Origin: Uloborus plumipes
Taxonomy: Eukaryota; Arthropoda; Arachnida; Araneae; Uloboridae
Assembly: GCA_038373865.1 (NCBI GenBank)
Contig: JAXGGA010001073.1
Location: 106,767 to 170,766 of the forward strand
Length of the DNA stretch: 64,000 bases
Direction: 5' to 3'
A program made the position numbers and the translations under genes. The number at the start of each line of letters is the position of its first letter. The stretch's first letter is position 1. The notes below the pieces were generated by a model that was given only the letters and a program-made list of their open reading frames with translations, ran no database searches and had not been told where the DNA came from. This document shows positions 10,329 through 57,396 of this stretch, piece after piece.

Positions 10329-10504
10329 GGTGATAAAGAACTGGGTTTAAATGTTTCCAATCTTTAAAACCTTTGTTGATGTCAGAAAATGATGAAGTCT
10401 TTCCCTGTTGACTTTTCCCAAAAAGGAGACAAGGAAAACAAAACAGAGCACCTTCTGATTAACTAAGGTTTAATCAGAATGATTAACTACTATTGAACTT
10501 CTGA
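10310..10504 (-). pseudogene. ZMYM1-like pseudogene, TTF-type zinc-finger segment outside the open frames
   Basis: Read on the minus strand, about 10451-10310 encodes LFCFPCLLFGKSQQGK and, further on, KHLNPVLYHHENSSSH, the Cys and His pattern of the TTF zinc finger that precedes the catalytic domain in this family. It is separated from the N-terminal frame by about 60 bp of short repeats (ttctgattaacta at 10453 and 10499) that bring in stops, and from the main body by a frameshift. It shows that the two long frames are pieces of one gene. Confidence 0.75.
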
Positions 10505-12924: not shown

Positions 12925-12971
12925 CGCCCGTGGCAAGAGCCACTCCTGCCAACCCCTAGCTACGCCTCTGT

Positions 12972-14050: not shown

Positions 14051-15025
14051 GTACGGGACGAAACCCTCCACAAGGTTCGAGAGCGCTTCTTCTGGAGCAA
14101 GGCGAAGGATGACGTGGAGAAGTGGTGCCATTCTTGTGACGCCTGTGCTGCCCGTAAAGGACCGAAGAGAAGAAGCCGCGGGAAGCTACATCTTTACAAC
14201 GTAGGAGCTCCTTTCGAACGAATCGGGATCGACATTTTTGGTCCTCTACCGAAAACTACTGATGGGAACAAATACATCCTCGTTTCCATTGACTATTTCA
14301 CCAAATGGCCCGAAGCATATTCCATTCCGGATCAAGAAGCTACCACTGTAGCAGAGACTCTAGTCCAGCATTGGATCTCGAGATATGGGACACCTTTGCA
14401 GATCCATTCCGATCAGGGAAGAAACTTCATCTCTGCTGTGTTTAAGGGCCTATGTAAAATCCTCAAAATTGAGAAAACTCGAACGACACCACTACACCCA
14501 CAATCGGACGGCATGGTGGAGAGATTTAACAGGACAATGCTTAATAATCTCTCGCTTATGGTCTCCAAAAATCAACAGGATTGGGACAAGAAACTTCCTC
14601 TGTTCCTGCTGGCCTACCGCAGTGCTGTCCACGAGACCACCGGATATTCCCCATCACAGATGCTCTTCGGACGAGAGCTTCGGCTACCTTGTGATCTCGT
14701 CTTCGGTCTCCCTCCAGATACGCCTTCATCGCCTGAGGAGTACGTCCAGGATCTCCAGGCCCGGTTGGAAGACGTTCATCACTTCGCACGGGAGCGAATC
14801 AACATCGCGACGGAGAAGATGAAGACCCGATACGACACAAGGTCCACTGGCCATGACTTTCAAGAAGGTGACAAGGTATGGCTATGGAATCCCATCCGAC
14901 GTAAAGGTCTATCACCCAAATTGCAGTCGCATTGGGATGGACCCTACACAGTCCTCCACCGGCTGAACGACGTCGTAGTGAGGATCCAGAAGTCATCACA
15001 TTCAAAACCTAGAGTTGTACATTAG
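14009..15025 (+). pseudogene. Ty3/gypsy element 1: integrase (frame shifted, interrupted)
   Basis: From about 14060 the frame encodes the end of the HHCC zinc-binding domain (CHSCDACAARKG), then the integrase core with IDIFGPLPKT (first D), HSDQGRNF (second D) and GMVERFNRT (E), and a C-terminal chromo-like or GPY/F tail (HWDGPYTVLHRL). The first His pair of the zinc domain is missing. Codons before about 14060 are the RT region read in the wrong frame. The last codons before 15025 run into an inserted element that supplies the stop. The remainder of pol resumes at 17272. Confidence 0.92.
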
Positions 15026-28462: not shown

Positions 28463-28785
28463 AAAAAGTAAACCAATGTTTCCAATTTCATTTTGAAGCA
28501 ATAGTATCCAAGTGGACTAATGTTTCCAATTTCATTTGGAAGCAATAGAATCCAAGTGGACAATAGAATCCAAGTGGAAGAATCCAAGTGGACTAATGTT
28601 TCCAATTTCATTTGGAAGCAATAAAATCCAAGTGGACAATAGAATCCAAGTGGAAGAATCCAAGTGGACTAATGTTTCCAATTTCATTTGGAAGCAATAG
28701 ACTCCAAGTGGACAATAGAATCCAAGTGGAATAATGTTTCCTATTTCATTTTGAAGCAATAGAATCCAAGTGGACTTTCCAAAGT
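28463..28785. repeat. Minisatellite built on aatccaagtgga
   Basis: The 12-bp word aatccaagtgga alternates with ctaatgtttccaatttcatt and tggaagcaatag in a higher-order pattern of several copies. The overlapping open frames here (with the words STWILL and NEIGN) are products of the repeat and not genes. Confidence 0.9.
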
Positions 28786-30159: not shown

Positions 30160-30721
30160 TCAACCTTGTACTTTTGGGGCATAGAAAATATGTCCGTTCC
30201 TTTCTTCATTGAACAACAACCCCGACCGCCCCGTTTGCAAGTCAATAACAGGACAGTGGCATCCTCTGGTCTCGAAGCTCTTTCTGTAAGTGGATTCACC
30301 AGTGAATCCGTTTTCCGTGGACAGGATGTTGTGGTTCTGTGGTTTTATCGTCTTGGTTTTCTCCACGTGTTCCACAGGGACTTTGAACGAGCTACGAGCA
30401 GTGGTCTGTCCTTCGAAATGTCCCTCTCCAACTTTCTGACTTGTTGTCGGTCGGTGTGCTCTGGACGGTCTGATGGTGTTGTGTCCGACGTACGACGCTC
30501 GAGATGTAGACGTCTGGTCTTGCCCGGTTTTCGTTTCAGGGTTTGACCGACTTGTATTCGCAGGAGTTTCTTGATTTTCGTAACCTCCTAGTTTGAAAGA
30601 AGACCTAGGTCTTAAATTTCTGCTTCTAGAGCCAGTATTACCCATGTATGAAGTGTTGGCCGTCGTAGAAAACTCCATGCCTCCAGTTTCTGTTAGACTG
30701 CTCCTTTGTCCTTCCTTATTC
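30160..30721 (-). CDS. SAXO-like repeat protein, last coding exon
   Basis: The acceptor (attttacag, AG at 30723-30722) opens an exon that begins with one base completing an Arg codon split by the intron, and runs 186 codons to a TGA at 30162-30160. The frame agrees exactly with the phase-2 donor of the previous exon. The protein continues the same repeats: LTETGGMEFSTTANTSYMG, then RPRSSFKLGG, HRPTTSQKVGEGHFEGQTTARS and NGFTGESTYRKSFE. It ends in a different tail with CHCPVIDL and GHIFYAPKV. The repeats are looser than in the big exon. I see no AATAAA right after the stop; the nearest candidates are several hundred bases downstream. Confidence 0.85.
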
Positions 30722-31668
30722 CTGTAAAATAAGGTCAAAAAGTTTCGATTATAACATAATGTAACCCTTTATGCCCTGAATGAATTTGGCAAGTAGAAAA
30801 TACATCAAAATAATATAGATGCAAAGCGTAAAAAATTTGACAATCAATATTGCAGGTATCATATCTGTTGACCTCTCAGCTAAGTACAAGGAATAGTACT
30901 TTCAAGTACCAGCATGATTCCAGTCATTTAGGATTCATGATACTAAATTAAAAGTAAGCGGTACTTCTGAGTACTGTCAGGGCTTAAAGGGTTTAACTGA
31001 TTTTTTTTTCGAAATCAGAGTAAAGTTTAGATTAGAATATTTAAAGAAATTTGAACACTCTCAGAAATGAATCTTCAAATCTCACGAAACTTTCTTCGTA
31101 TTTATAGAAATGGCTTCATGAAAATGGTCCGAATAAATTTTTCGTCAAACCGAGGTTCTAGACAAATTGAGGAATATTTTGTGGTATTTGAGCATGAGCT
31201 TAACTCAGTGTGAAAAGGATCGTCGTAAGTGACGAAATTTGTCTAAGAATTGAAGAAGCTTTGAAAATGAACGATGCATTTCTATTAATGAACTCTTTGA
31301 CTGACCTAAAACTGTGTGAAGCACAGTCATTAAAATTCATTCACTTTTCAATTAAAGACAGTAAATTACCGAAAAAATATTTTTTTTACTCCTTTCAGTT
31401 TTACGCTGCCAAGGTTCATGCTTTTAAGACAGGAATTCCCTTGATATCTGTTATTTCAAAGTTTGCCACCACGTAATATGGTTCAGCTTGCCCAACATCT
31501 TACTTCTATATTTAAACATTTTACGGATTCTACTATTATTGTCACTTTGTCAAACATTCCATTAAAGTTTACAATATTCTCTGACAGCTGAAACCAGGCC
31601 CGTCATTTATGGGGGCAGGAGGGTCAATTGCCCCCCCACTGGCTTTGAGAAATCAATTTGTGTACATA

Positions 31669-33088
31669 CACTGCTCGACATTGAAAATGCAACACCAAGA
31701 AGGAGTGGTCAGAAATTGATGAAATTTGGTAAGAAGACAGAGACAGCATGGAACAATAAGTGATATTTATTTCAAAATAAATAAGCAAAATTTAGAGCGA
31801 GGACGGCGTCGGCTCAGTAAGAAGTAGGACCACCGCGGACAGCGATGCACGAAGAAACACGTCTAGGCATGGAGTCAATAAGCCTGCGGATGGTGTCCTG
31901 AGGGATGGCACTCCATTCCCTTTCAACCATTTGCCACAGTTCGTCCTCTGAACGAGGCAGTGACAGGTTCTGCAAACGGCGTCCAATCACGTCCCACACA
32001 TGTTCGATTGGTGACAAGTCAGGAGAGTATGGTGGCCAGGAAAGCATCTGTACACCTCGTAGAGCATGTTGGCTGATTCGAGCACTGTAAGGCCGGGCGT
32101 TATCCTGTTGAAAAATTGCATTTGGCAGACCCTGAAGGTAGGGGATTGCCACCGGCCGCAGTACATTATCTACATATCGTTGGGCCGTCATAGTGCCCCG
32201 AATACGAACTAGAGGTGATACGGAATTGTATGCAATAGCGCCCCAAACCATTATGCCACGTTGTCGCGCTGTGGGGCGTTCCACAGTTACTGCCGGATTC
32301 GATCTTTCTCCACGTCGACGCCACACACGTATGCGATGACTATCGCTGGACAAACAGAAGCGGGATTCATTTGAGAACACTACGGTTTGCCATTCTGCCA
32401 TCCACGTCGCTCTGGTCCGGCACCATTCCAAACGTTGGAGTCTGTGCTGTGAGGTCAATGGCAGTCTTCTTAGCGGGCGCCGTGATTGCAGGCCACGTGC
32501 AACCAGTCGACGGGAAATGGTTCTGGTCGACACAGGAACATCCAGGGTACCTTGCACGTGCTGCAGAATCGACGTACAAGTGACTTGCGGGTCCGCCACA
32601 GCTTGTCGGTGAATCCGTCGATCCAAGCGGTCTGACGTCACTCTGGCTGCACCTGCACCCCTCAATGTGGCTACATTTCCTCTTTCCAACCATCTCCGAC
32701 ACAGCCGATGCACAGTGCTTGCATCCATGTGGGTATCAGCTGCAATTTGACGTATGGACCAACCTCCCCTTCTCAGTCCGATCACCATACCCCTTGTAAA
32801 GTCGTCTATATGCTGGAAGTGTCTTCGTTGAGGACGGCGTGGCATTTCCTCCTATCACACGTATCCTTCGAGACAAAAACCAAATTTCTCCGATAATTAG
32901 TCTGGCAGAAAAACCAACATGAACATAGCCCACTTTTCAACTTCATTCTCTTATATCTTACTTCACGTGCGTCGGAGAGCTGCGCATTTCATATCATTTG
33001 CATAACTCAGTGACGTGCGTCTACGGTAAAATTTGCATGAATTTCTGACCACTCCTTCTTGGTGTTGCATTTTCAATGTCGAGCAGTG
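31669..33088 (-). mobile_element. Tc1-like element, copy 1 (1,420 bp)
   Basis: The inverted ends start CACTGCTCGACATTGAAAAT and run for about 45 bp. The left flank is TA (31667-31668); the right flank is now ga, probably a mutated TA. It carries one transposase frame on the minus strand. The element is one base longer than copy 2 at 51193-52611, which is what the single-base deletion in copy 2 predicts. Confidence 0.93.
31814..32845 (-). pseudogene. Tc1-like transposase, copy 1: full frame but first catalytic Asp replaced
   Basis: This 343-codon frame is the normal full length of a Tc1 transposase. The N-terminus has two helix-turn-helix regions (WSIRQIAADTHMDASTVHRL near 29-48, and a second near 70-125). 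The catalytic motifs are VFSNESRF (the first Asp is Asn here, GAT to AAT), FQQDNARPY and LSPIEHVWD. Between the second Asp and the Glu there are 32 residues instead of the usual 34. Copy 2 has SDES at the first site, so Asn is a loss in this copy. The protein may still be translated and could bind the ends, but should not cut DNA. Confidence 0.9.
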
Positions 33089-33635
33089 GAAAAGTGGGCG
33101 TGGTGTTTGATGTTTTCCGATGTAATTGCATTGTGTTTGGGCCCTTTGCCCCCCCCCCTGGAAAAACTTGAAATGACGTCCCTGGCTGAAACCGAATACT
33201 TTTCTTTCCTTATCGTCAAATTCTATTTCAATGATGTCCTGTAAGGAAAATTTCAAATTGATATGATAAATTTTTTTTTTAATCTTACTAAACTGACTCC
33301 GAATTTACCCCCCCCCCTGGTTTTAAAAACATAATGCAATTATGCATTATTTCTATGAAATGCATTGAATATGTGCGTCCTTTGCCCCCCCCCCTCCCTC
33401 CAGAATTCAGATGACGGGCCTCGTTTTTCTCATACCTCAAACCTCGTTTTTCTCGTACTTCATCATTTTACTTTTTCACTATTTCGTCCCTCTAAAAGTT
33501 GCTTATAACCTCTGCAAATTTGTTCCTCGCTTTATTTTTATAGCAATTACTCCAATTACTTTTTCCTAACTTAAACTTATTATAGCGAAATTTACAGGTA
33601 AATAGAAATCAAATACATGTTCTAAAAGGACTTAC

Positions 33636-36600
33636 CTTAACTGCATCTGGCGTCTGTTAGTGAAATAATCCTTATTAACCGAATAATCATGCGATGTAGT
33701 CTCAAACTCCATTTTCCCTTCCTGTTTCAACGACTCGCCTCGTCTCTTTGAAGATGAACGTCTAGCCTCCCATTTTTTGTACTCTGACCTTGAAGTTGTA
33801 GAGCCTTCAAATGGTACCGAGTCTATCTTCAAATTGTCATCTGGTCTGTAACGTTTCGATGCTCTTGTACGCACGTGTTGCGACGATTGGGATACTGCCT
33901 GATGCATATCCTGTGATTCAGAAGACTGAGAAATTGCTCCCTGTACCTCGTCTAATGTAATATGAGCTCCAGCTTCTCCATTGCTTTCTGTAACGATTTC
34001 CCCATTCGTTAAGTGTGATGCTTCAATCACTCCATTTTGAACTGCTGATTGCATTTCACCTGAAGCAGCAGCTGCGTCAGCCTTATTGAAATCTGATTTG
34101 GAAGTTGTTGCAAAAGTCATGCTTACACCTGGTCTCAGATTCACATCGGGTCGAATAGCTTTCACTCTTGGAGCTTGCTGTCCTCCGTAGTCGGCCATGA
34201 CTGTTGAAACATCCCTATAAGCAGTTTTTTGAGCTACTTCCTGAGAATGAACTAGTTCGTTTTGTGAATCTGCTTCAACCTGTTGGTTCGAACCTTCAGC
34301 ATCCTGTTTTGAATTCTCATTATCTTGATGTATTGTTACAGATTGTTGCAATGCGCTTTCTTCAGCATTTTGATTTTCATTGGCTGCTTGGGAAGTATCT
34401 CCTTCTGCTTCTAAATTTTCAGATTTCAACTTCCAAAGCTGATGATCTCCGCCGTTTTCAGTCTTCTGAACTTCGCCGGTGCCATTTGAGTCTTTTCTTT
34501 GGGTTTGAATTCCTGCAGCGTTTACTTTCTTTCTTCTTGATTGCCTACTTTCCATTCTCACCCATTGTTTGTACTCTCTGCTGGATGTTGTTTCATTAGT
34601 AAATTTTCCGGCTTCTACATGCAGATTGTTTTCGTGGCGAATTGGTTTCACACGTTCTAATTTTTCATGCTGCTGAAACATAGCTTGATTGGTTGTAGTT
34701 CCTGTGAACGTACCTTCAGTTTTATTAGTGGTTTTTGGACGTATTTGCTGTACTTTATCAAAAGATTTTTCTCCGAATTCTTTTCGATTGGTTGTCTCAA
34801 AATTCATGTCACCTTCGTGCTTCAGAGAGGTGATAAGTTGATATGCTTTTGGTTTTTCTGCTACCCACTGTCTGTACTCGTCGCCTGTAGTCGTGGTATC
34901 TTGAAACAATCCCTCGTTCATTTGAATATTGTTACTTGGCCTTATTTCAGCAGTTCTTTCCATAGTTTGACCTTGAAACGTCTCTTGATTTGTTGTAGTT
35001 GAATGAGATTGACCATCTAATGTTTGCGTTAGAGTTCTTTGCCGCATTCTTTTAGGTCTGTTGAGTGGTTTTTCTTCAAAATCTATTTGATTAGATGTCA
35101 TAAAATCGAAATCTCCTTCCTGGCCAAGAGTTGACTGATGTTTTATAGGTGCTGGTTTGTTTGATGGTTTGTAACCGAAATCTTTCAAGTTGGTGGTTTC
35201 ACTACTAAATTCACCACTTTGGATTCGTAAGTTATCCCGTGGTCTTATGTCGCGAACTTTCTCGATTGGAACCGTTTGATACATAATCTGGTTAGTGGTT
35301 GTTCCATCGAATTCTCCTGTTACAGGAGAAGAAGCGTGAGGCACTATCTTTTCCACTTTTGTCATTGGTTTTTCCTCAAACTCAATTTGATTTAACGTGG
35401 TGAAATCCATTGACCCCTCCTGAGTTAGATTTGATGTGGGCACAATGGCCTCTGGCCTATTTGCGTTCCAATTCTGAAATTCTCTTCGAGCGGTTGTTTC
35501 ACCATCAAATTTGCCCTTTTCTAAATGAAGATTAGTAGATGGTCTTTTCCCTCTTACTTTTTCGACTGTTTTGTTTGGATACATAACCTGGTTGGTAGTA
35601 GTGGCATCGAAATCACCTTCTCCAACAATCCGTGTTGCTGTAGTTGGTCGTACTTGAGGCATTCTTTCTCCCATTTTCCCCTCGAATTGCATTTTATTAG
35701 TAGTTGTAAAATCCAAGTCTCCCTCCTGTCGCAAACTACTGCGAGGTTTGATTGGAGACGGCCTTGAATAATCCCACGTTTGAAATTCTGTTTGATTAGT
35801 GGTTTCATTATTAAAAGACCCTTGTTCAAGCTTTAAATTTGTTTTAGGTCTTATTTGGCGAGGTCTTTCAGTTGGAATATTTTGAAACATGAGTCGGTTT
35901 ATTGTAGTGTCATCAAAAGAACCTGTAATTCGTGGATCACTTTTAGGTCTTATTTCAGACACTCGGTCCACACTTTTAGCTGCATATTGCAATTGATTTG
36001 TTGTTGTGAAATCCATATCGCCTCCTTGATGATGCATTTGACTTCTCGGTGTTATCGCGTCTGGTTTAGCAGGTTTCCATGCCTGAAATTCCACTTGATT
36101 TGTTGTGTCACTGGAAAACTTTCCTTTTTCTACTTCTAAATTATTCCTCGGTTTTATCATATCAGGCCTCTTATAAGCTTGTGTTTCATACATTATTTGG
36201 TTAGTTGTAGTGCCGTCAAAATCGCCAGTGATCTTTGAGGACGTTTTTGGACGAAACTGCTGAAGTTTTTCCATAGGTTTCTGGTCAAACTGCATCTGGT
36301 TCATAGTTGTAAAGTCTATAGAGCCTTCTTGCCGTAAATTTCCTACGGGTCGGATGGGTTTCGGTCTTTCTGAATTCCAGTCTTGAAACTGAGCTTTACT
36401 CGTTGTTTCAAAGTCAATTGCCCCGGAACTCATTCTCAGATTGGGTTGTGGAACAATTTTCTGAACTCTTTCTATCGGATATTCAGCATGCATTTCTCGA
36501 CTTGTTGTTTTTAAATTCATATCTCCTGATATTCTATTTGTAGTCGTAGGTCGAATGGGATAAACTTTTTCCGGATGTTTTTCTTCAAACTCAGTATTGT

Positions 36601-38367
36601 TCGTTGTAGTAAAATCAATCAGACCTTCTTGAGTAAGACTTGACTTCGGTACAATAGGAGCAGGGCGCTTAATCTCCCACTGCTGAAACGCCTTTGCAGT
36701 TGTTGTTTCATCGACAAAATCTCCCTTTTCGACGTGGAGATTACTTCTTGGTCTTATGGGAACTGCTTTTTCTGCTTGTTCACTGGAAAACATTATTTGA
36801 TTCATAGTAGTGGCATCGAAATCTCCCTCAAATACTTTTGTCGTAGTTTTTGGCCGAATCCCTTTCACCCTTTCCAAGGATCTCTCAACAAACTCACTGC
36901 GATTAGTTGTGTTAAATTCCATATTTCCTTCTTGCCTTAAATTACTGTGCGGTCTTATAGGTTTAGGACGGATTTCGTCCCAAGTCACAAAATGTTCTTC
37001 ATTTTCTTCATATCCATTTGTATAATCCTCAGTTGCCATGCTTTGTTGTGCAATTTGGTCTTTTAATGCTCCGTTTGTAATAGTTTCTGCATGATTTCCA
37101 TCTCTTGCTGCTGCTTCTTGATCTTGGAATGATTTAGCTTCAAACGTAGCACCTTCTGCTGATTTAAAATCCGTGACATTCTCTGTGCCGTGAACTTCTG
37201 TGGTTTGAACGTCTTGGGCTGCACTTGATTCACCCCCGAAGCCATTTTCGAATGTTCTAACTTCAGATGATTGCATTTCTTGATAATCAGAATGTGCCTC
37301 GGCAAATTGATGTGTATGTTTTGATGGGGAATAATCCGTGTCCTGCGTTGTTTCAAAAGTAAAATCCCCTTCCGACATAAGATTGTCTTTCGGTTTCTGA
37401 GCAATACGTTCGGATATTCCCTTCATTTCAGAACCCTCCAGATTGGCAAATGTCATACTCTCTGTTCGAAAACCATTCGTTTCGGAGCCATCACTGAGGT
37501 GAAAAGTATCAGATGGCTTGTGTCTCATCGGCTTTCCAACTTTCCATCGTTTGAAATCGTTAACAGCTGTTGTTTCATCCGACATTAGATCGTTTGATAT
37601 TTTAATTTCACTTTGTGGTCTGGCGTTCCTTGGCTTCAGTGCTACAAGGTCCTCAGCATGGATGTTTGAGGCAACAGCGTTGTAATCCAGCGATGTGGTA
37701 TCGAATATCATTTCACCTTCGGGCTTTAAATGACTTCGACTAGTACCTTTCTTCACTTTGAAGTTATCACTAGCCTGTTTCGGAGTGAAAGCTTGCTGAT
37801 AAGAGCTGTCGGATTGAAAATCGCCGCTTAATTTCAACGATGTTCTTGGTCTATGGAAAGGCTCGCCATTACCCAGCGCCTCATCAGACTGCTTCCTGAA
37901 CACATTTTCGTTAAAAACAGCATTGTTTGTCGTTTCCAAATTCAATGGACCCGATAAAGTCAGATTGTCTTTCTTAACTATCTTTCGCGTTTTCGATATC
38001 TGTCTTTGATTCCAAGATTCTGCTGTTGCTTTTTCGGAGTTAGATTCATTCGCAGGATGTATCAGCTGAATCTTTGAAGACTTTGTCTGAAAGTCTTGTT
38101 GGTGAATCGTTGTAAAATCTGCACTTCCTTCTGGTCTAAGGTTATCTGGCCTTCTTATGGGTCTAGTTTTCGGAATATGTTTTGCTGACCAATTCGTGCC
38201 ACCATTTGCGAGTAAACTTTGGCTGTTACCTTTATCTTCGACGGTTAATGCTGTTGCGACGTTCGTTACGTCACCAAGAGACTCTCTTTCTTGTCTTTTT
38301 GTCGCAGATAGCAATGAATCTTCTGATTTACTTTTTGATAAGCTCCATCGTCTTCTTTGCCGTCTCT
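33636..38367 (-). CDS. SAXO-like microtubule-associated repeat protein, giant exon
   Basis: A 4.7 kb exon is open throughout (1,576 whole codons plus a split codon at each end). The acceptor is TTTTAAAAG|AG (AG at 38369-38368) and the donor AAG|GTAAGT (GT at 33635-33634). Its phases match both neighbouring exons: G+AG gives Glu, AG+G gives Arg. The product is made of modules of about 33 residues with the pattern RPxxxLxxEGxxDFTTTN. In the middle (34.64-36.96 kb) three module types, A (SLRQEGDMDFTTTN), B (GDFDGTTTNQIMY) and C (NLHVEKGKFSSETTN), alternate eight times. The start is basic (RRQRRR) and a Gln/Glu/Ser-rich linker follows the array. The pattern matches Mn modules of SAXO/FAM154 proteins, which bind and stabilise axonemal microtubules; the role here is inferred. 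An arthropod-specific cytoskeletal protein is the alternative. Confidence 0.85.
34640..36960 (-). repeat. Eight tandem copies of a ~302-bp coding unit
   Basis: Corresponding positions of the A module (the stretch coding FTTTN next to QEG) fall at about 34797, 35095, 35397, 35700, 36005, 36306, 36607 and 36910, a steady period of about 302 bp or 100 residues. Each unit codes modules A, B and C once. The copies differ at many silent and some replacement sites, so the array is not a recent satellite but a kept coding repeat. Confidence 0.88.
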
Positions 38368-38589
38368 CTTTTAAAATAGAGAAATGCACAACAATTAATA
38401 AATGCTAATGAGTCAAAATTCGACAAAAATATTCTTTTAAGATATTATTTTAAATGTATATCTTTTTCTGTACTCATTTGGGATGGACGTTGATTCAAAT
38501 TAAGTAACTTTTCACACATTGTTCTTGATAAATAAAAATAATGCTACTTTTAAGTTATAGATTGTATTTGAAAAGAATTTTAACAATGC

Positions 38590-38899
38590 CCCCCCCCTAT
38601 CAGGAAATATACTACACTATACCCTAGGGTCCCCGTATCTGCACTACAATGGTTTAACCAGTTGGGTGAGGACCTAAAGAGTCTTTTTGATCTGTACCAG
38701 CAGTCTAGCAACTACTGATCTCGTATTTATGGAGCAAGGATTGCTCGGCTCCAGAGGAATTGATTTGAAAGCGAATTTTGAGAACTGGGTGAATATTACA
38801 GATTTAGCGTACATGAAGGATCTTTGATAGGAGGCAGGAATCGAGCCCGCAGCCCTCCAGTTACGAATTCAAAGTTTTGTCAATTAGGCCACAACGGTT
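38590..38899 (-). mobile_element. tRNA-derived SINE
   Basis: On the minus strand the head has a good A box (TGGCCTAATTG, 38891-38881) and a B box one base off consensus (GGCTCGATTCC, 38847-38837), followed by about 250 bp of unrelated body that ends near a G-run at 38588-38596. The spacing of the boxes fits a tRNA promoter. The tail border is not certain. Confidence 0.7.
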
Positions 38900-39222
38900 A
38901 TTAGTAAATATATTTCCATTTAGGATTTATTCAAATTTGCACATTAACCGTTCATAACTTACAGTTTATTATTTATTAATTTTGAAGTTGACGCTATTTC
39001 CTAAAAAGAGAGAAAAGCAGTATAAAATTTTCTGTTAAGTGTCATGAACAAAATTGAATAAGAATACAAAATATGTTCTATATCATCAGGGCTCTCAAAC
39101 CTACGGCCCGCGAGCAGATTTTTTCCGGCCCGCGGAAAAAATCTGTTTTTTCAATTCCCCCCCCCCCCTTTTTAAAAAAAAAATATATTTTTAAAATTAA
39201 ATTAACCAGAACAGTGAAACAC

Positions 39223-39290
39223 ATGGATGTAGCTGAAGTAATGGATGTAGTTGTCAAAACAGTTAACTTTATTAGATCCAGTTCTCTTAA
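39223..39290 (+). pseudogene. hAT transposase remnant, segment before the TTAA insertion
   Basis: The frame codes MDVAEVMDVVVKTVNFIRSS, a block typical of GTF2IRD2/ZBED5-like hAT proteins that comes just before the RQFKNFL and EVRWLSRG blocks. Those follow directly at 40163 once the TTAA element is left out. Confidence 0.8.
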
Positions 39291-40162
39291 GGTAGTAGTC
39301 TGGTAACTTATGCCTATTTTCATGACTTCTTTGGAGGGTGGTTTTTTATAGGAAAATAAAAATGAATTATCTTGAATATTAAGAGTGTTTTTATTTACAT
39401 ATTGAAAATATAAAAAAAATTTATTTGAAAAAATTTAATAGTTTATTACTATTATTATTGTCCCTCGAAGTTGGAACTTCAAAAAAAAAATGCACATGGG
39501 TGGCCCGGGTGATTTTGGCTCTTGATGTTATCTGAAATCAAATATTCTTGATTATTCTTAATCTATAGACATGTCATTCTGGTCGGAACTACTGAAGTTA
39601 AATTTCAAGGGTAAATAACAAAATGGCGGACTTTCAAAAAAAAATGTCTTTTTATTTTAGCAAAGAAAGGGTTGTAAAATAAAAAGTTAGGGGTGAAAAA
39701 AATTCTCTTTAGTTCCGACGAGAACTATAAGTGTGTAGAACAGCCTGTTAAAATTTGAAAGCAATCGGTTCAGTAGAAAAAAAGTTAGGACCCGGGCCGA
39801 CCAGAAAAACAGTGTTTTGAGAAAAACGCGTTTAAAGTTCAACAACAAACTCCGAGGCGCTCTAGGAAACTCGTTATAACTCCCGAAATATTTCGAATTT
39901 CTGTGTGAAATTTTCACAGTATATTCTCAAGACATTGTACTTGCAAATTAGGCAAAAAAAAAATCGAGTTTTTGAACTCAAGTTACCAGACTACTTCCTT
40001 AAAGGTTGGTCTCCGAGGCGCTCGAGGAGACTCGTTCTACCTCCCGAAATATTTCGAATTTCTGTCTGAAATTTTCATAGTATATTCTCAAGACATTGTA
40101 CTTTCAAATTAAGCAAAAAAAATTTTTTTGATTTTCTGAACCCAAGTTACCAGACTACTACC
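39291..40162. mobile_element. 872-bp TTAA-flanked element (piggyBac-like, non-autonomous)
   Basis: The ends are a perfect 19-bp inverted repeat, GGTAGTAGTCTGGTAACTT, and TTAA stands on each side (39287-39290 and 40163-40166). It splits the hAT transposase at Ser-Leu-Lys and the frame resumes after one TTAA. An inner copy of the end word (agttaccagactacttcc, about 39982) suggests an internal partial duplication. No transposase. Confidence 0.88.
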
Positions 40163-41026
40163 TTAAAGATCGCCAATTCAAAAATTTTCTTGCTGAAATT
40201 GACAGCGTTTATCCAGATGTTCTTTACCATTCTGAAGTTCGCTGGTTAAGTAGAGGCAAAGTATTGCAGCGATTTTTTGAACTTCGAGAAGCGATTGATA
40301 TTTTTATGACTGAACGTCGGCATCCTGTACCTGAACTTTCTGACAGTGTATTTGTCTGGAAATTGGCTTTTCTTGTTGATCTCACCACACATATTAATTT
40401 TTGAATTTAAAGCTGCAAGGGGAAAACTCCTCAATTTGTGACTTATACTGGCATGTCAAAGCTTTCAGACAAAAACTCATGCTTTTCGAGAAGCATTTAG
40501 GATCGATGAACTTTGATCACTTTGAAATGTGTAAAAACTAAGGTGCATTAAGTACTACTTCCTTTCCCAAGGTTCCTCGTCTAACCTACGAGAAGAATTT
40601 AAGAGCCGTTTTGAAGACTTTGACCGTGCATCAGATGATATCCAGATTTTTCAAAACCCTTTTAACTGCGATATAGGCAAAGTGCCTCCTGAAATCCAAC
40701 TTGAAGTCATCGAACTTACTACCAACGACTCACTCCAGACTGCTTTCCAGGAATGCCAAAAAGAAGGTAATCTACTTTCATTTTACAGTTCTCTCCCGGA
40801 AAAAGATTTTAAGAACATAAAAATTCACGCTCGAGTTATGTTTTCTCTTTTTGGGTCTACCTACAAGTGTGAGTAGACATTTTCAAAAATGAAGTATGTT
40901 AAATCTAAGTACAGCTCCTCTTTATCAAATGAACATTTAAAATCAACTTTAATGATGGGAAGTACAAAGTTTGACCCTAAATGGACTGAAATTTTAAGAG
41001 GCAAACAAATGCAATCTTCTCATTAA
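40163..41026 (+). pseudogene. hAT transposase remnant, C-terminal half
   Basis: Recognisable blocks in order: RQFKNFLAEIDSVYPDVLYH, SEVRWLSRGKVLQRFFELRE, then after a frame break near 40400 further matching pieces, IHARVMFSLFGSTYKCE, and after an in-frame TAG (40873-40875) TFSKMKYVKSKYSSSLSNEHL, the hAT dimerisation region. It ends at a TAA (41024-41026). Stops and shifts show that it is long dead. Confidence 0.85.
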
Positions 41027-41587
41027 AAATTGTCCTAAGCGTCGCACTCGCTCTGTCCTCATTTATTGTTAAGTTTCTTATCATCATTAATACATAAAAT
41101 TCATTTAATAAATTGTAGTACATTGCAAGGATTTAGTTTTTAGTCCAGTTTGGCTTTTTTTTAAACTCCTTTTTGAGAGCAAAATACATTTTGTGGGAAA
41201 AAAAGACTTTTATTTCAGTTTTCTGAACTGCTCTCTAAATTTTAAGAGTTTCCGTAATGTTACTAAAAACCATCTGAACTGAACTATTTTTGGACCGTTG
41301 GCCCTCCTCGCTTCCAAAAATTTTCAATTTGGCCCCCGAGTAAAAAAGGTTGTAGACCCCTGTTCTATATCATTTCTCTTTAACTTGAAGCAAAGAGCTT
41401 ATTGAATGGCAATCCGTTTTCACTTAAAGTTATCAAAATAATCAAAATAGTATTATTTACGACATCATTTTGATTAAGTTGTGTCATAGTATAATTTATA
41501 ACTTGTTTACACATAGTTGCGGAATGCCTATTGCGAAACAAATGGTATGAATTTTCCCCTCTCCTCTTACTCATTTTGTTTGCACCA

Positions 41588-42080
41588 CAGTCAAACTTGT
41601 CTATCTCGAATTTCACGGGACAAAAGAAAAATTCGAGATATGAAGGTTTTCGACATACAGAGGTTGTGATAAAATTTACAAAAATAAACAATTGGAACAA
41701 AGTCAAATACTTAATAGATTGTTTCGTATTGATATTGTCGAATATTCTACTGTACGACATGTTGTGAGTCCACGTTTTACTAATTGTGGTGACTATATCG
41801 GTAGTAAGTTAATGCATACCTTTAAGTACGAACATAGTCTTTGAATGACTGTGCAAAAGATGATTTTTGTCTCCAAGTTATACTATTGATGAAGGTGGCT
41901 AGAGATGAAATTCAAACATTAGAGTCGTCGAAATTCGAGATATAGAGGTTTGTGGGAAAATCATTCGATATAAACATGAGAAAAATCATTAAATTTATGC
42001 TGTAAAAGCAAGGAAATTGAAAAAATTCGACATAGAGAGGTTTTCGAGGTAAGCAGGTTCGAGATAAACAGGTTCGACTG
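41588..42080. mobile_element. 493-bp MITE with CAGTCAAACTTGTCTATCTC ends
   Basis: The left end cagtcaaacttgtctatctc matches the complement of the right end (gagataaacaggttcgactg) at 17 of 20 bases. The inner part repeats aaattcgagatat words in both orientations. End sequence of the type CAGTCGAACCTG and size fit a Tigger/pogo-like MITE; a TA duplication is not evident. Confidence 0.65.
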
Positions 42081-42464
42081 CATGTGACTTGAGATTGAAT
42101 CATGCGTGAACAAAACTAACTTTGATCAATCGATTGTATGAAATTTAAAACTTGTTTCAATCCCTTTTTGATGAAATATTTGTCTGGGATTCAAGAAAAG
42201 AGAAGATATCCCTTTTCGACGTGTTCTTCACTGTGTCGAAAATATTTCAGGTAATGGTGTCATTAATATCATTAAGATTAGTTGAAAGACAACATCTGAG
42301 TCCTTAAAGAAGAGTTGTTCGAAATAGGAACAACTTTTCATGGGACATAATCGGAAACTATGGGGGATATGTTGTTTGAATGGAAGTCCCCCTCTTTGAG
42401 AAACTAAATTAAACACGTAATAAGGACATAGTGAAAGTTATTTGTCAAAGTTGTGCCAACTCAC

Positions 42465-42550
42465 CTCGAAGTATTTCACGTTTGCTTTCAACTTTATCTT
42501 CTCCAAGAACTATGTGGCCTCCTGCTTCTCTGTGAGGGCACATGTGCCTC
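42465..42550 (-). CDS. SAXO-like protein, N-terminal exon with RHxCPH motif
   Basis: A short 86-bp exon between a strong acceptor (TTTTTCTGCTACAG|G, AG at 42552-42551) and a strong donor (CGAG|GTGAGT). Only one frame is open, and it codes RHMCPHREAGGHIVLG and ESKREILR. RHxCPH is the end of the Cys-rich N-terminal motif of SAXO/FAM154 proteins. The exon enters with one base (phase 2) and leaves with one base (phase 1), and the phase-1 end fits the giant exon. It was too short to be found as a long open frame. The upstream exon is uncertain (see 45271-45284). Confidence 0.75.
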
Positions 42551-42836: not shown

Positions 42837-43547
42837 TGTCATTCCATAGTGACTATACTTCGCAGCAGTTTAACTTGGCAGTGACGTCACTACGGGTGGA
42901 GCCAATAAGAGCTCACAAGCAGTCAGCGGTCTCCTCTAATTCGCCAAGTAGGCTGTGACGTTTTATCTAGCTCGTTTTTCATAGGCTAACGTCACGCTGT
43001 TGGCTCCGCCCGTAGTGACGTCACTGCCAAGTTAAACTGCTGCGAAGTATAACGTAACATTCAGAGCTAATTTTGTAACTGTTTTTACTTGTAACTTAAA
43101 GGATAAAAAAAAATTTTAGTTATGCTGGTGGATTTACAATGTACATGGTATCTATGAATCATTTCTGCAAAGAATTTAAAGCAAAATTACTGACAGTAGA
43201 TATTTTTTCAACCAAAATAGCAGCGTGACTAACGTAACATTTTTGCAACCCTGAAAATTAATGCTCATGTTGTGAGACAAAAATTTCTAAGCAAGAGTTA
43301 AAAATTGATAAACAAATATGGAGTGTGACTAACGTAACGTGACTAACGTAACCATCGAAAAACAAGCAGTAAACACACTACAAACTATTTGTTATGACTA
43401 ATCTCAGTGATAATTACAATACTTTTTCAATTTTTTTTAGCTTCTTATGCTGTATGATTTTTATTTATTTATTTATTTTTTGATACATTTTTCACTTCGG
43501 TATTTTTTTTTTCTTCGGCTGAGGTTGACATTTCTATGGAATGACCC
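42837..43547. mobile_element. GGGTCATTCC element, copy L (with a nested MITE)
   Basis: The ends are tGTCATTCCATAG and CTATGGAATGACCC. A 5-bp word, taaag, lies outside on both sides (42832-42836 and 43548-43552). Its body is the reverse complement of copy R at 43746-44353. The word gtgactaacgtaac occurs several times inside. A 194-bp MITE sits near its left end. Confidence 0.78.
42856..43049. mobile_element. 194-bp palindromic MITE with CRE motifs, TA-flanked
   Basis: The inverted ends, TACTTCGCAGCAGTTTAACT and onward, run about 48 bp with one mismatch. TA stands on both sides (42854-42855 and 43050-43051). The homologous place in copy R reads gtgactaacgtaac, the empty site. Each arm has a perfect TGACGTCA (42882-42889 and 43016-43023), the consensus site of CREB/ATF factors. 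A relative is at 49526-49886. Confidence 0.88.
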
Positions 43548-43745
43548 TAAAGATGAACTCCCATAATAAAACCAAACTGCTTCAAGTGCATTTTTTGGAC
43601 TTAATTTTTGAAAATTTGCCGAGAGATAGCCTCAAACTCCATTCTTACTTTAGCCAAAAATGACTAGTTTTTTTTCTCTATTACTTCAAATTCGAAAACT
43701 TTCCCAAAGAGTGCCACTTAGCACCTCCCAGGAAACAATTCTGGA

Positions 43746-44353
43746 GGGTCATTCCATTGAAATGTCAACCTCAGCCAAAGAAAAAAAAATACTGAAGTGA
43801 AAAAAGTATCAAAAAGTAAATAAATAACTAAATAAATAAAAATCATACAACATAAGAAGTTCAAAAAAATTAAAAAAATATTGTAATTATCTCTGAGATT
43901 AGCCATAATAAATAGTTTGTAGTGTGTTTACGGCTTGTTATTCGATGGTTACGTTAGTCACACGCCATCTTGAGTAAAAGTGACACTTAAGGCTAAAAAA
44001 AATTTAAGATTTAATAAAAACGTTTTATGTTTTTAAAGACAACTTTACACATTTTTCAAATATATCATTCAATTTTTAACACTTGCTTAACTTTGAGATA
44101 TTTTTGCCTCAGAACATGAGCATTCATTTTCAGGGTTGCAAAAATGTTACGTTAGTCACGCTGCTATTTTGGTTGAAAAAATATCTACTGTCAGTAATTT
44201 TGTTTTAAATTCTTAGCAGAAATGATACATATATACCATGAACATCGTAAATCCACCAGCATAACTAAAAAATATTTTTTATCCTTTAAGTTACAAGTAA
44301 AAACAGTTACAAAATCCGCTCTGAATGTTACGTTAGTCACTATGGAATGACCC
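43746..44353. mobile_element. GGGTCATTCC element, copy R (inverted relative to copy L)
   Basis: The ends are GGGTCATTCCATTG and ACTATGGAATGACCC, and tgga lies outside on both sides (43742-43745 and 44354-44357). Sequence along its length matches copy L in reverse orientation, for example the words taacttaaaggataaaaaa and gctggtggatttac. No coding frame. The class is unclear; 4-5 bp duplications are short for hAT. Confidence 0.75.
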
Positions 44354-51192: not shown

Positions 51193-52611
51193 CACTGCTC
51201 GACATTGAAAATGCAACACCAAGAAGGAGTGGTCAGAAATTCATGCAAATTTTACCGTAGACGCACGTCACTGAGTTATGCAAATGATATGAAATGCGCA
51301 GCTCTCCGACGCACGTGAAGTAAGATATAAGAGAATGAAGTTGAAAAGTGGGCTATGTTCATGTTGGTTTTTCTGCCAGACTAATTATCGGAGAAATTTG
51401 GTTTTTGTCTCGAAGGATACGTGTGATAGGAGGAAATGCCACGCCGTCCTCAACGAAGACATTTCCAGCATATAGACGACTTTACAAGGGGTATGGTGAT
51501 CGGACTGAGAAGGGGAGGTTGGTCCATACGTCAAATTGCAGCTGATACCCACATGGATGCAAGCACTGTGCATCGGCTGTGTCGGAGATGGTTGGAAAGA
51601 GGAAATGTAGCCACATTGAGGGGTGCAGGTGCAGCCAGAGTGACGTCAGACCGCTTGGATCGACGGATTCACCGACAAGCTGTGGCGGACCCGCAAGTCA
51701 CTTGTACGTCGATTCTGCAGCACGTGCAAGGTACCCTGGATGTTCCTGTGTCGACCAGAACCATTTCCCGTCGACTGGTTGCACGTGGCCTGCAATCACG
51801 GCGCCCGCTAAGAAGACTGCCATTGACCTCACAGCGCAGACTCCAACGTTTGGAATGGTGCCGGACCAGAGCGACGTGGATGGCAGAATGGCAAACCGTA
51901 GTGTTCTCAGATGAATCCCGCTTCTGTTTGTCCAGCGATAGTCATCGCATACGTGTGTGGCGTCGACGTGGAGAAAGATCGAATCCGGCAGTAACTGTGG
52001 AACGCCCCACAGCGCGACAACGCGGCATAATGGTTTGGGGCGCTATTGCATACAATTCCGTATCACCTCTAGTTCGTATTCGGGGCACTATGACGGCCCA
52101 ACGATATGTAGATAATGTACTGCGGCCGGTGGCAATCCCCTACCTTCAGGGTCTGCCAAATGCAATTTTTCAACAGGATAACGCCCGGCCTCACAGTGCT
52201 CGAATCAGCCAACATGCTCTACGAGGTGTACAGATGCTTTCCTGGCACCGTACTCTCCTGACTTGTCACCAATCGAACATGTGTGGGACGTGATTGGACG
52301 CCGTTTGCAGAACCTGTCACTGCCTCGTTCAGAGGACGAACTGTGGCAAATGGTTGAAAGGGAATGGAGTGCCATCCCTCAGGACACCATCCGCAGGCTT
52401 ATTGACTCCATGCCTAGACGTGTTTCTTCGTGCATCGCTGTCCGCGGTGGTCCTACTTCTTACTGAGCCGACGCCGTCCTCGCTCTAAATTTTGCTTATT
52501 TATTTTGAAATAAATATCACTTATTGTTCCATGCTGTCTCTGTCTTCTCACCAAATTTCATCAATTTCTGACCACTCCTTCTTGGTGTTGCATTTTCAAT
52601 GTCGAGCAGTG
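51193..52611 (+). mobile_element. Tc1-like element, copy 2 (1,419 bp)
   Basis: Inverted ends CACTGCTCGACATTGAAAAT and onward, about 45 bp, with TA on both sides (51191-51192 and 52612-52613). It sits in the leader of retrotransposon 2 between short tandem repeats of gtgcttcaagtgtgtt. It is very close to copy 1 (31669-33088), in the other orientation. Confidence 0.95.
51436..52466 (+). pseudogene. Tc1-like transposase, copy 2: one-base deletion before the catalytic Glu
   Basis: The frame starts MPRRPQRRHF and keeps both helix-turn-helix regions, VFSDESRF (first Asp present) and FQQDNARPH (second Asp). At about 52243-52246 one C is missing compared with copy 1, in TCCTGG(C)CACC, so the frame shifts before the SPIEHVWD block, which lies in the next frame (52263-52466). 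The original frame stops at 52293. Thus this copy keeps the catalytic residues in DNA but cannot make a full protein. Confidence 0.93.
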
Positions 52612-53153: not shown

Positions 53154-54278
53154 ATGGCATACTTACTACGTTTCAAAAAAGACGATTTAATAGAGCTGTC
53201 GAAAGAGTTAGGACTTATCGTAGAGGAAGAGGACACGAAAATAAAGCTAAAGGATAAAATTATCAAACAAGAGGGCTATGTAGAGGAAGACGTCAAGGCT
53301 CTGATAGACGCTATCCAAGAAGAAAAAGATCTCGAAAAAAAAAAGAATACAGGAAGAAAGGGAGTTCAAACTTGAAAAATTAAGAATACGAGAAAATAGG
53401 GAACTCGAACTGGAAAAGTTAAAAATACAAACACAACAGCAACTGAATGCAGATAATCAAACAGAAAATATCGCAACGCCGCCGGCTAAATTTGTTCACG
53501 AAGCGTTCCACAAATTTAATATGAAGGATGATATTAGCTTAAATTTAACACTGTTCGAAAGATATGCTGAATTAATTTTGCTACCGAAGAAAGACTGGGT
53601 CCAACGACTTATAGGATTGATTCCGATTGACGTAGCTCACATGATCGCCCGAGAACCCGCAGAAAAGGCCAATGACTACGACCACGTAAAAAGTCTACTA
53701 TTAAAAGGATTTAAATTGTCTCCAGGAAAATTTCGCCAACTATTTGTTTCGCATCGAAAAGTCACCGAACACACATGGTCAGATTATTACAACGAACTGA
53801 AGACTTATTACGAAGGATGGATTTCAGGCCTTAAGATAGAAACTTTCGAGAAACTCAGCGAATTAATTATAGCCGACCAAATGAAGAGAAAAGCGCCGTA
53901 CGAGTTCAAAGCACATTTTCCAGATGAATGGGCAACCATTAATTCACCAATTGAGTTAGCAAGGAAATTCGAAGAGTATGAAGACGTACGTAAAGAACAT
54001 TGAAGCCAAAACCGTCGAATTCTTCTAAAAGACGAAAATTCGAAAATAGAGAAGCTAATAATGCTGGGAATGTTTACCGAAACTCCGAAAATTTCAGAAA
54101 CGAAGAATATAGGTACGAAAGAAAACCGTTCCATGCTTATCGAGAACCATACGCAGTAAGAAATAATTCACCGAAAAACCAAGAACATTTAAGAAACGAA
54201 GGATATAAGTACGAAAGAAAACCGTTTTATTCTAATCGAGACTCATACACCGAGAAAACAATTTACCGAACAAAATGA
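53154..54278 (+). pseudogene. gag of retrotransposon 2 (frameshifted)
   Basis: The start ATG at 53154 begins MAYLLRFKKDDLIELSKELG. The frame breaks at an A-run (53336-53346) in a Glu/Lys-rich coiled coil, resumes to 54003 and changes again near 54000, followed by a basic Tyr/Arg/Asn-rich tail. Residues coded at about 53740-53960 (KFRQLF, then LSELIIADQMKRKAPYEF and FPDEW) look like the SCAN-like capsid C-terminal domain found in some gypsy gags. The zinc knuckle follows in the next frame (54278). At least three frames are used, so no whole Gag can be made. Confidence 0.82.
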
Positions 54279-57200
54279 TATGCTGTTACTGCCGATCACA
54301 AAGCCATTATGGAGTAGAATGTCCAGACCGACCTAGCCTTAACATGAAGAGCGACACACCTCCGATCAAAGTAGTACAATTTTGCAATAGAACCTCAGAC
54401 GAAAAACACGGAATGAAAGAAATTACTCAACGAAACAAAGTTCTAAATGCGTTAGTTGACAGTGGTAGTTCCGTAACCCTCTTACGCGAAGACAAAAGCG
54501 ACAAAATAGTAAAGCATACTGAACTTTCCAACGAAGGATTAATACTCACCAGCTTCGGAAACACACAGGTTCAAACTAAAGGATCGTTTAAAGAAGAAAT
54601 CGAATTGGATGAACAAAACTATATTTTGACCTGGCATGTTCTCCCTAAACAGCATCTCGAATTTGAAGCGATTATAGGAAGAGATATCCTAAACCAAGCA
54701 TCGGTGAATTCACAAAAGAAGGAATTAAATTTCGCAAACGAGAAAATCAAGTTTGGTCTATGCATGCGCAGCTATTTGAAGGCAGAACGCAAGACCAAAT
54801 CGATGTCAAACATGTTTCAAACCCGAAAATAAGGGAAGACTTATCGGAATTAATCTCTAATTATACGTCAAAGAAAACTGAAACAACAAGTGTATCAATG
54901 AAAATCATTTTAAAAGATGACATTCCGGTTTACCAGTCAGCGCGCCGACTATCATTCTCCGAGAATCAAGTTGTAAACAAACAAATTGATGAATGGCTAG
55001 AACAAGGAATCATACGACCCAGCTCGTCTGAATACGCAAGTCCAATTGTACTTGTGAAAAAGAAGGATGGAAGCACCAGATTATGCGTGGATTATAGAAA
55101 ACTAAACCGTAAACTCGTTTAAGATCGATTCCCACTACCATTAATAGAGGACGTGCTAGACAAGCTTCAGGGAGCTAAATTGTATACGACACTTGATTTG
55201 AAGAACGGATTTTTTCACGTGAACGTAAACGAAGATAGTAAACAGTTCACCTCTTTTGACGTTCCAGATGGACAGTTTGAGTTTAATAAAGTCCCTTTTG
55301 GTCTCAGTACAAGCCCCAGTGTATTCCAGAGATTTATCTTCAGTATTTTCCGAGAACTTATGCGAAAAGGCATTGTAAAAATCTATATGGACGATTTAGT
55401 AATTCCTGCTAAAGATGAAAAAGAAGGACTTGAGAAGTTGAAAAAAGTCTTCGAAGTAGCTTCAAAATATGGTTTGGAAATAAAATTCTCAAAATGTCAA
55501 TTTTTACAAAGAAAAATAGAATTCTTAGGCCACATCATTGAGAACGGAACAATTCGTCCATCGACAGAGAAAACGCTAGCAGTGAAAAAGTTTCCCATAC
55601 CAACTACGGTTAAGCAAGTTCAAAGTTTTCTAGGCCTAACCGGTTACTTCCGCAAATTTATTCCAAAATATTCCGAAATGGCAACCCCTTTAAGCGACTT
55701 GACAAGAAAAGATAATGCATTTGTATTTGATCGACCGCAAATCGAAGCGTTTGAGAAGCTGAAAAAAATGTTAACAGAAAGTCCAGTGTTAAGTATCTTT
55801 AGACCGGGAAGAAATACCCAGTTACATACAGATGCAAGCCAACATGGCTATGGAGCTGTTTTATTACAAGACGACGATGGAAAAATGCATCCTGTACTGT
55901 ACATGTCCCAAAAAACCACTCCGGCGGAAGAAAAATATAGTAGTTATGAGTTGGAAGTCCTCGCTGTCGTCACAGCTCTAAAAAAATTTCGGACTTATCT
56001 CTTAGGCAACCACTTTAAAATTATGACCGACTGTTCAGCATTCCAAAAGACTATGGATAAAAAGGACTTAGTTACCCGAATAGCCAGATGGGCCCTTCTC
56101 TTGGAGGAGTTCGACTATGAAATAAAACATCAACCTGGCAAGCAAATGCAACATGTGGATGCCTTAAGCAGGAATCCAGTGGCCGTAATTACGGACGATA
56201 CTCTCACCGCAAAATTAAAACGGGCTCAACAACTAGATGAAAACGTACAACATTTAAAATCCCTCCTAAATAGTGACGCACCAGACTTTTTTGAAAGAAA
56301 TGACATTTTATACAAATATGAAAACGGCCGCGAATTAATTGTCGCACCAAGAGATATGCAAAATGAACTTATCAAACTGGCACACAACAAAGGACACTTT
56401 GCAGCAACGAAAACTGAAGAGATCGTTAAATTAGACTTTTTTATCCCAAATTTAACAAAACGTGTGCAAGATGTGATTAGAAATTGTGTACCATGTATAC
56501 TAGCCAATAAAAAAAGTTTAAAGAAGGAAGGATTCTTAAACCCTATACCTAAAGAAGATATACCGCTAAGCACCTATCATGTCGATTTCATAGGCCCTAT
56601 GCCATCTACAAACAAAAATTACCAGCACATCCTAACCGTTGTTGACGCATTCACAAAGTTCACATGGCTTTATCCAACCAAATCCACTTCCGCGGAAGAC
56701 GCACTCGAAAAACTGAGGCTGCAACAAAAAACTTTTGGAAACCCCAAAAGAATAATCACTGACAAAGGACCAGCATTCATCGCTAAAGCTTTTAAAGACT
56801 ATTGTGAAGACGAGAAAATACTTCATCTGCCAATAGCAACAGGAGTACCCCGATAAAACGGCCAAGTTGAGCGAATACACCGCACGCTTATACCAGTTCT
56901 CACAAAACTGTCCATCAAAGACCCTAACAAATGGTACAAATTCGTGGACAAACTACAAAGGACACTTAACAGTACCTCCAATCGAAGTACCAAGCGCACT
57001 CCTTTCGAGCTGTTGGTGGGTACCACTATGAGAAACAAAGAAGACCTTAAGATACAAGAACTGCTAATGGAGGAATTCATAGAAGAATTAGAGGAAGCTC
57101 GAAAGCTACTACGGCAAGAAGCAAAGAAAAACATCCAAAAACTTCAGGCTGAAAACAAGAAAACATACGATAAAAAACGTAAGAAAGCTCCTGAATATCA

Positions 57201-57396
57201 AGTGGGAGATTTAGTGGCAATCCAAAGAACTCAGTTTGGAACAGGGTTAAAATTAAGACCTCGATTTTTAGGACCCTATAGAATAAAAAACGTTAAATCA
57301 AGAGACAGATACGATGTAGAGAAAGTAGGGACTCATGAGGGCCCTAACTTAACCACCTCATCGGCAGACATGATGAAATATTATTCCCAAACTTAA
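54275..57396 (+). pseudogene. Zinc knuckle and pol of retrotransposon 2 (stops and frameshifts)
   Basis: Order: a CX2CX4HX4C zinc knuckle (CCYCRSQSHYGVEC, 54281-54322); aspartic protease with ALVDSGSSVTLL and IIGRDIL; a frameshift near 54755; reverse transcriptase with TLDLKNGFFH and catalytic YMDD (about 55387-55398); RNase H with HTDASQHGYGA; integrase with the HHCC domain, YHVDFIGPMP (first D), ITDKGPAF (second D) and NGQVERIHR (E); and a C-terminal tail to a stop at 57394-57396. In-frame stops lie in RT (55120-55122) and just before the catalytic Glu of integrase (56854-56856). The domain order PR-RT-RH-IN is that of Ty3/gypsy. Inactive. Confidence 0.92.

Follow-up and report, generated by a model that had tools for sequence, protein, structure and literature searches.

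In the solved relatives of the stabilisers of axonemal microtubules (SAXO), inside the microtubule the Mn motif takes the form of a short helix, placed at the alpha-beta intradimer interface (PMC8144581, PMC9564825; these and the further papers below are cited from excerpts). The Mn repeats are lumenal and spaced by 8 nm, with 32 residues per tubulin dimer (PMC8144581), a spacing of 8 nm also being given for the SAXO Mn motifs of human cilia (PMC9564825). In their structures, SPM1 and FAP363 are lumenal and follow one or two protofilaments (PMC8144581). Here we describe a gene in a 64,000-nucleotide stretch of the spider Uloborus plumipes (contig JAXGGA010001073.1, positions 106,767 to 170,766), hereafter the window, which judging by its sequence is the SAXO orthologue of spiders and a giant variant within a known family. 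Its protein carries 37 Mn modules, 24 of which form an array of three alternating classes, A, B and C. The locus had been singled out by a model that read the DNA letters without database searches (the original prediction). The giant spider SAXO is already present in databases, where it is unnamed (uncharacterised or hypothetical), and a literature search, mainly outside subscription journals, found no report of a spider SAXO.

Results

The window protein scores 74.4 bits against the Pfam family SAXO1-2 (PF05217; cut-off 26.5 bits, E=1.2e-20) and matches the PDB chain 8ou0_D, named SAXO1, at E=1.4e-8. Its C terminus holds GHIFYAP, to be compared with GHRIYRP in hare and GHKFYCP in turtle SAXO1; this GHxFYxP-type motif was noticed in the present analysis, and we know of no published criterion that makes use of it. 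At the N terminus, the RHMCPHR part of cysteine motif 1 (CxCxxCxCGRHxCPH) is found in the window, and the whole motif in the orthologues of Parasteatoda, Stegodyphus and Oedothorax. The original prediction had proposed kinship with SAXO/FAM154, to be checked by a profile search, and the Pfam score, the 8ou0_D match and the C-terminal motif establish a true relative, with a likeness beyond composition. An identity as MAP6/STOP, that is Mn modules without SAXO motif 1, does not fit, as motif 1 is partly present in the window and complete in three orthologues; it is described as absent from MAP6 and MAP6d1 in the excerpted part of PMC3280300.

The gene and its modules are laid out as follows, in the order of transcription.

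30160..42550, minus strand: the whole gene, with three exons
42465..42550, minus strand: exon e1, 86 bp, encoding RHMCPHREAGGH...; its first base falls within a codon
42529..42549, minus strand: RHMCPHR, the latter half of cysteine motif 1 at the SAXO N terminus (compare CICDLCSCGRHHCPH of the mammalian SAXO1 P0014)
33636..38367, minus strand: exon e2, 4,732 bp, the large repeat exon
37331..38128, minus strand: modules 1-6, N-terminal, irregularly spaced (matrix positions, coordinates derived)
34514..36931, minus strand: modules 7-30, the central contiguous array of 24, equal to eight A-B-C super-repeats
36629-36931, 36329-36628, 36026-36328 and 35726-36025, minus strand: super-repeats 1-4
35420-35725, 35120-35419, 34817-35119 and 34514-34816, minus strand: super-repeats 5-8
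33680..34126, minus strand: modules 31-33, irregularly spaced, in e2 (matrix positions, coordinates derived)
30160..30721, minus strand: exon e3, 562 bp, holding the stop codon
30274..30684, minus strand: modules 34-37, in e3 (matrix positions, coordinates derived)
30175..30195, minus strand: C-terminal GHIFYAP (coordinates derived), matching GHKFYNP (centipede) and GHRIYRP/GHKFYCP (vertebrate SAXO1)

The phases of the three exons agree, and together they give one open frame of 1,792 residues to the stop. With a slash marking the splice site, the e1/e2 junction joins the donor CGAG/GTGAGT to the acceptor TTTTAAAAG/AG, and the e2/e3 junction joins TTAAG/GTAAGT to TTTTACAG/GAA; across both, the residues of the Uloborus diversus protein P0001 are identical to those of the window protein, orthologous gene models serving here in place of transcripts across the exons. 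RNA libraries of U. diversus have been prepared from the bodies of both sexes and from separate body parts (PMC9912274). Three exons with exact phases and about 1,790 residues had been predicted, which agrees with the measured length and with junctions that keep the frame. The e1 residues also occur in P0001. Since e1 begins inside a codon, and CICQLCTCG directly precedes the e1-equivalent residues in Parasteatoda P0002, Oedothorax P0006 and Stegodyphus P0007, at least one upstream coding exon is missing from the model. P0001 (1,791 residues) begins at the same MCPH as the window model, and it follows that the U. diversus model is also without the upstream coding exon.

To locate Mn modules, we trained a position-specific matrix on eight proteins, among them that of the window itself; it returns 37 modules in the window protein as against 0.4 per 1,800 residues in 30 shuffled sequences. 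The published Mn syntax, [TS][TS]x4[YF], occurs 32 times (mean 3.9 and maximum 9 over 500 shuffles), and 29 of the 37 modules contain it strictly. Within the array the modules are spaced by 33.61 residues on average (range 33-35), resulting in super-repeats of 100, 101 or 102 residues, or about 302 bp. The eight-fold A-B-C alternation with a period of ~302 bp is thereby borne out, with boundaries at 34514-36931 rather than 34.64-36.96 kb. As to the several dozen modules at ~33 residues that had also been proposed, the spacing stands, and the number comes to 37, of which 24 are regular and 13 lie in irregular flanks.

The order of the modules was assessed by permutation. In the window array, similarity between modules peaks at lags 3, 6, 9 and 12 (z 4.7, 4.8, 4.4 and 3.3), the remaining lags up to 12 showing no peak, and the lag-3 similarity reaches p=0.00025 in 4,000 permutations of module order. 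Unsupervised average-linkage clustering into three groups recovered strict alternation over the 23 modules that could be scored, the 24th, without a following module, being left unscored, and leave-one-out class calls gave 23/24 and 24/24. These order permutations, the clustering and the leave-one-out calls are the non-circular tests of the three classes, and on all of them the distinct module classes of the original prediction hold. What they show is three classes of sequence; the different partners that the original prediction suggested for A, B and C may exist. The class profiles themselves were built from the window and Stegodyphus proteins with classes set by position, so that the 23/23 canonical transitions of these two are circular, and U. 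diversus, a near copy of the window protein, adds little to the transition evidence. One class bears a residue of its own: a tryptophan three residues past the core aromatic is present in 7/8 C modules and in 0/16 A or B modules (Fisher p=2.3e-5, with modules as non-independent samples), and the counts in Stegodyphus are the same. With a mean identity among the eight of 37% in protein and 52% in DNA, the super-repeats are old; Tandem Repeats Finder does not list them.

A search of a huge protein collection with a 761-residue piece of the array returned 13 homologues, namely 11 spider records, one centipede protein (26% identical) and one priapulid protein (21%). The closest is an uncharacterised protein of U. 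diversus (P0001, LOC129225041), with 82% identity before the array, 92% in it (742/806) and 79% after it. For Stegodyphus the identity is 64% in the array (516/803) versus 43% in each flank; the array is more strongly conserved than its flanks. Moreover, the best-matching module has the same index in 21/24 cases from the window to Stegodyphus and in 20/24 in reverse, which indicates that the array predates the split of the two species.

The window species, U. diversus and Stegodyphus have in common an array of exactly 24 modules; elsewhere the array counts 39 in Parasteatoda, 32 in Oedothorax, 32 in Nephila, 44 in Trichonephila clavata and 38 in T. inaurata (partial model). Canonical transitions between classes make up 36/38, 27/31, 27/31, 36/43 and 32/37 in the latter five, respectively. 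This transition count omits Trichonephila P0008, Caerostris P0009 and Araneus P0010 and P0011, four models that are short or partial and whose irregular strings speak against a strict three-step in orb-weavers. When eight spider proteins were subjected to the lag test, those of the window, U. diversus, Stegodyphus (lag-3 z 6.6) and Parasteatoda peaked at lag 3 or 6. Lag 2 gave weak peaks in Oedothorax, Nephila and Caerostris (z 3.4, 3.4 and 2.6; lag 3 at z 3.3, 2.3 and 2.3), and the strongest lag of T. clavata was 5 (z 6.0). Some spiders thus keep a strict three-step, and others break it.

Beyond spiders, 16 vertebrate SAXO1 orthologues, spread over mammals, reptiles and birds, were chosen among 120 listed, and 12 module positions were set by eye in the hare protein. 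Averaged over the 16, lag 2 stands out (z 2.8, p 0.0023, uncorrected for the eight lags), and neither lag 3 (z -1.6) nor lag 6 (z 1.1, p 0.13) is significant; one echidna SAXO1 block of seven modules gave no significant lag. In the priapulid protein, of which 28 of the 30 modules were used, the peaks fall on lag 2 (z 6.0) and on multiples of it. Spider class profiles were also carried over to the centipede protein, where the tryptophan-bearing class transfers and the A class does not (1/33 modules called A).

A profile search for further giant relatives, scored on the 7,989 candidates with the most words in common, yielded six matches. Outside the window, two gastropod proteins, P0134 of Haliotis rubra and P0135 of Lymnaea stagnalis, are giant and SAXO-like, with a six-module super-repeat that would correspond to 48 nm at 8 nm per module. 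P0134 peaks at lag 6 with z 12.8, partly through recent duplication, a near-identical six-module unit being present in four copies, and with z 5.0 in its older 23 modules; P0135 gives z 7.6 at lag 6, after two gaps had been filled by position, which raised its modules from 26 to 28. Two ant proteins, P0136 and P0137, also matched the profile (E 5.1e-39 and 4.2e-23); they have no listed Pfam domain, and show few module matches for their size (10 in 3,573 residues and 7 in 3,124, respectively).

Intron 2 of the gene holds a Tc1/mariner-like element at 31669-33088, with 59-nt inverted ends that are 95% complementary and a 345-residue open frame with transposase domains, and a second, closely similar transposase frame at 51430-52293 (plus strand) ends early, at 287 residues. 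Just upstream of e1, at 42854-44335, lie nested long inverted repeats (arms of 184, 143, 68 and 52 nt, 92-98% complementary), which may be foldback or nested mobile elements. A frame with DUF4371 at 8643-10346 (minus strand) is of a kind found in hAT-type transposons. Reverse transcriptase, RNase H and integrase domains at 12960-15022 and 53308-57393 (both plus strand) mark two long terminal repeat-type retrotransposons, the domains sitting in separate reading frames or being split by a stop. Finally, a minisatellite-like array with periods of 76, 62 and 44 bp occupies 28475-28775, and nothing in Rfam reached the gathering threshold.

Discussion

The whole is best explained by a spider SAXO that was enlarged by old internal duplication and would form a lumenal thread, its likeliest site being the sperm axoneme, a reading to which we assign a probability of about 0.72. 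The spider modules keep the Mn core and the spacing of the solved relatives. By analogy, each Mn core would be a short helix at the intradimer interface, one per 8-nm dimer, and the protein a thread along the lumen, the 24-module array spanning about 192 nm of protofilament and stabilising that microtubule. From one Mn module per 8-nm dimer in the solved relatives it follows that A-B-C would equal 24 nm, and the A, B and C modules, as classified by sequence, would each recur every third dimer. The tryptophan of the C module would then mark one dimer in three, perhaps for a partner that crosses the lumen.

Several observations weigh against this reading. Prediction of the 761-residue array piece by AlphaFold was uninformative (mean predicted local distance difference test score 30.7, no helix of four residues or more), and helix formation and lumen binding are consequently argued from the relatives. 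In human cilia, the excerpted account has the SAXO thread not identified by sequence, with SAXO1 and SAXO2 as the most likely candidates (PMC9564825), and an excerpt of a study of mouse sperm doublets, in whose map SAXO1 was not identified (PMC10663601), also counts against the sperm site. The three-step is broken in four spider species, with AB units in Oedothorax, AC units in Nephila and T. clavata, and T. inaurata likewise among the four with AB or AC units. Lastly, neither patterns nor tblastn located, on the window's minus strand, the 5' exon that should carry the opening half of the cysteine motif: a six-frame C.C..C pattern had four matches in the window, every one on the plus strand, a donor-site pattern had a single match, inside a transposon copy and without the cysteine motif, and the N-termini of Parasteatoda and Stegodyphus gave weak tblastn matches only, the best at 17.3 bits and on the plus strand.

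The most likely place of action would be the sperm axoneme, with sensory cilia, the other ciliated cells of spiders, as the second candidate. The spider sperm axoneme is coiled inside an immobile, encapsulated and long-stored cell, in Argiope with four coils (PMC3765205), and we conjecture that a lumenal stabiliser would suit such an axoneme. Because the related Mn protein MAP6 makes microtubules grow along a helical path (PMC12228683), one may even speculate that the giant SAXO helps the axoneme to coil without breaking.

Whether the A-B-C order reflects the microtubule itself is a separate matter. The module periods found are 2 (vertebrate SAXO1 and priapulid), 3 or its double (four of the eight spider proteins and the centipede) and 6 (the two gastropods), which at one module per 8 nm would translate into 16, 24 and 48 nm, each of which divides the 48-nm repeat of the doublet. 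It is conceivable, if on balance improbable, that SAXO proteins spell out the register of the axoneme in the order of their Mn modules. On that view the spider protein would belong to the axonemal microtubule inner proteins and have a period of 24 nm, equal to the spacing of the outer dynein arms. In the excerpted account of bovine doublets, the interior shares the register of the 24-nm repeat outside, and the inner proteins have periods of 8, 16 and 48 nm, none of 24 nm (PMC8595878); outside axonemes, one inner protein of 24 nm is known according to an excerpt of PMC12819142, CF2 of the Toxoplasma conoid. The fit of the periods is suggestive only, since the lineages are few, block duplication is sufficient, orb-weaver units are mixed, T. 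clavata peaks at lag 5 (which the register reading would need to explain as a secondary loss), and excerpts on the cortical microtubules of Toxoplasma report no inner-protein period above 8 nm detected (PMC8144581). The alternative, that A-B-C is a mere footprint of the duplication of a three-module DNA block, unrelated to the lattice period and with A, B and C as interchangeable binders, has in our view an even chance. It draws on the Toxoplasma result and the T. clavata peak just mentioned, on array sizes that vary freely among spiders, from 24 to 44 modules, on non-canonical transitions (Parasteatoda 2/38, Oedothorax 4/31, Nephila 4/31, T. clavata 7/43, T. inaurata 5/37), on the weak lag-2 peaks of Oedothorax, Nephila and Caerostris, and on the four near-identical copies of the Haliotis six-module unit, a plain block duplication. 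What it leaves unaccounted for is that the super-repeats are old (0.37 identity in protein, 0.52 in DNA), yet class-specific residues such as the tryptophan (7/8 C modules) persist. The cryo-electron microscopy papers, as excerpted, cannot separate SAXO-type threads or find their true period; Mn repeats look alike (PMC9564825, PMC8144581, PMC12819142), and even for SPM1 the true period is called unclear (PMC12819142).

Other proposals concern the place and the integrity of the protein. Two other Mn proteins, MAP6 and MAP6d1, work in the microtubules of neurons and primary cilia (PMC12228683), and the spider protein might similarly line microtubules other than the sperm axoneme, for example in sensory dendrites, centrioles or the spermatid manchette; we consider this unlikely, as it has SAXO end motifs rather than MAP6 architecture and as SAXO1 is enriched in testis, vertebrate SAXO1 being linked to testis and sperm axonemes (PMC9564825). 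Far less probable is a function as molecular ruler, or as a tether that links microtubules to one another or to other structures; the original prediction had put forward a ruler or a long inner or outer tether. The length of the protein, its regular spacing and the exact 24 modules shared by the window species, U. diversus and Stegodyphus would suit such a function, but array length is not conserved among spiders: the arrays counted hold 24, 24, 24, 39, 32, 32, 44 and 38 modules (the last from a partial model), and a ruler of set length is rejected. An outer tether found no support either, with SPM1 and FAP363 both lumenal and extending along one or two protofilaments (PMC8144581), though MAP6d1 is described as binding outer lattice and lumen alike (PMC12228683). 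That the gene model is decaying or chimeric, as the 5' exon not found in the window and the Tc1-like element in intron 2 could hint, is scarcely credible against one open frame of 1,792 residues, an array identity of 92% (742/806) with U. diversus and a conserved C-terminal motif.

For the proposed lumenal SAXO thread, three clear classes, one of them with a tryptophan, amount to a built-in marker at every third dimer, and the question of register becomes testable. Should module order prove to copy the register, it would show how inner-protein periods can shift between animal groups.

Among known systems, vertebrate SAXO1 (FAM154A; in hare 477 residues and 12 modules) has about a quarter of the length of the window protein, and shares with the spider proteins an Mn spacing of 33-35 residues, the N-terminal CxCxxCxCGRHxCPH (in the window, its RHMCPHR part) and the C-terminal GHxFYxP-type motif. 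MAP6 and MAP6d1 resemble the window protein in their lumen-targeting Mn motifs (PMC12228683, excerpt). SPM1 of Toxoplasma likewise has Mn repeats in tandem, each on one tubulin dimer inside the lumen, and they number six of 32 residues as opposed to 37 modules (PMC8144581, excerpt). T1IJX3 of the centipede Strigamia maritima (1,209 residues, 34 modules) has a lag-3 peak as in the window (z 4.8), a weaker lag 5 (z 2.6) and a tryptophan-bearing class, 5/10 of whose steps are three modules and the others 2, 4 or 5. The three module classes recur in the orthologous giant spider SAXOs (U. diversus LOC129225041, Parasteatoda LOC107438339, Stegodyphus LOC118183952 and others), whose counted arrays span 24 to 44 modules, that of the window having 24.

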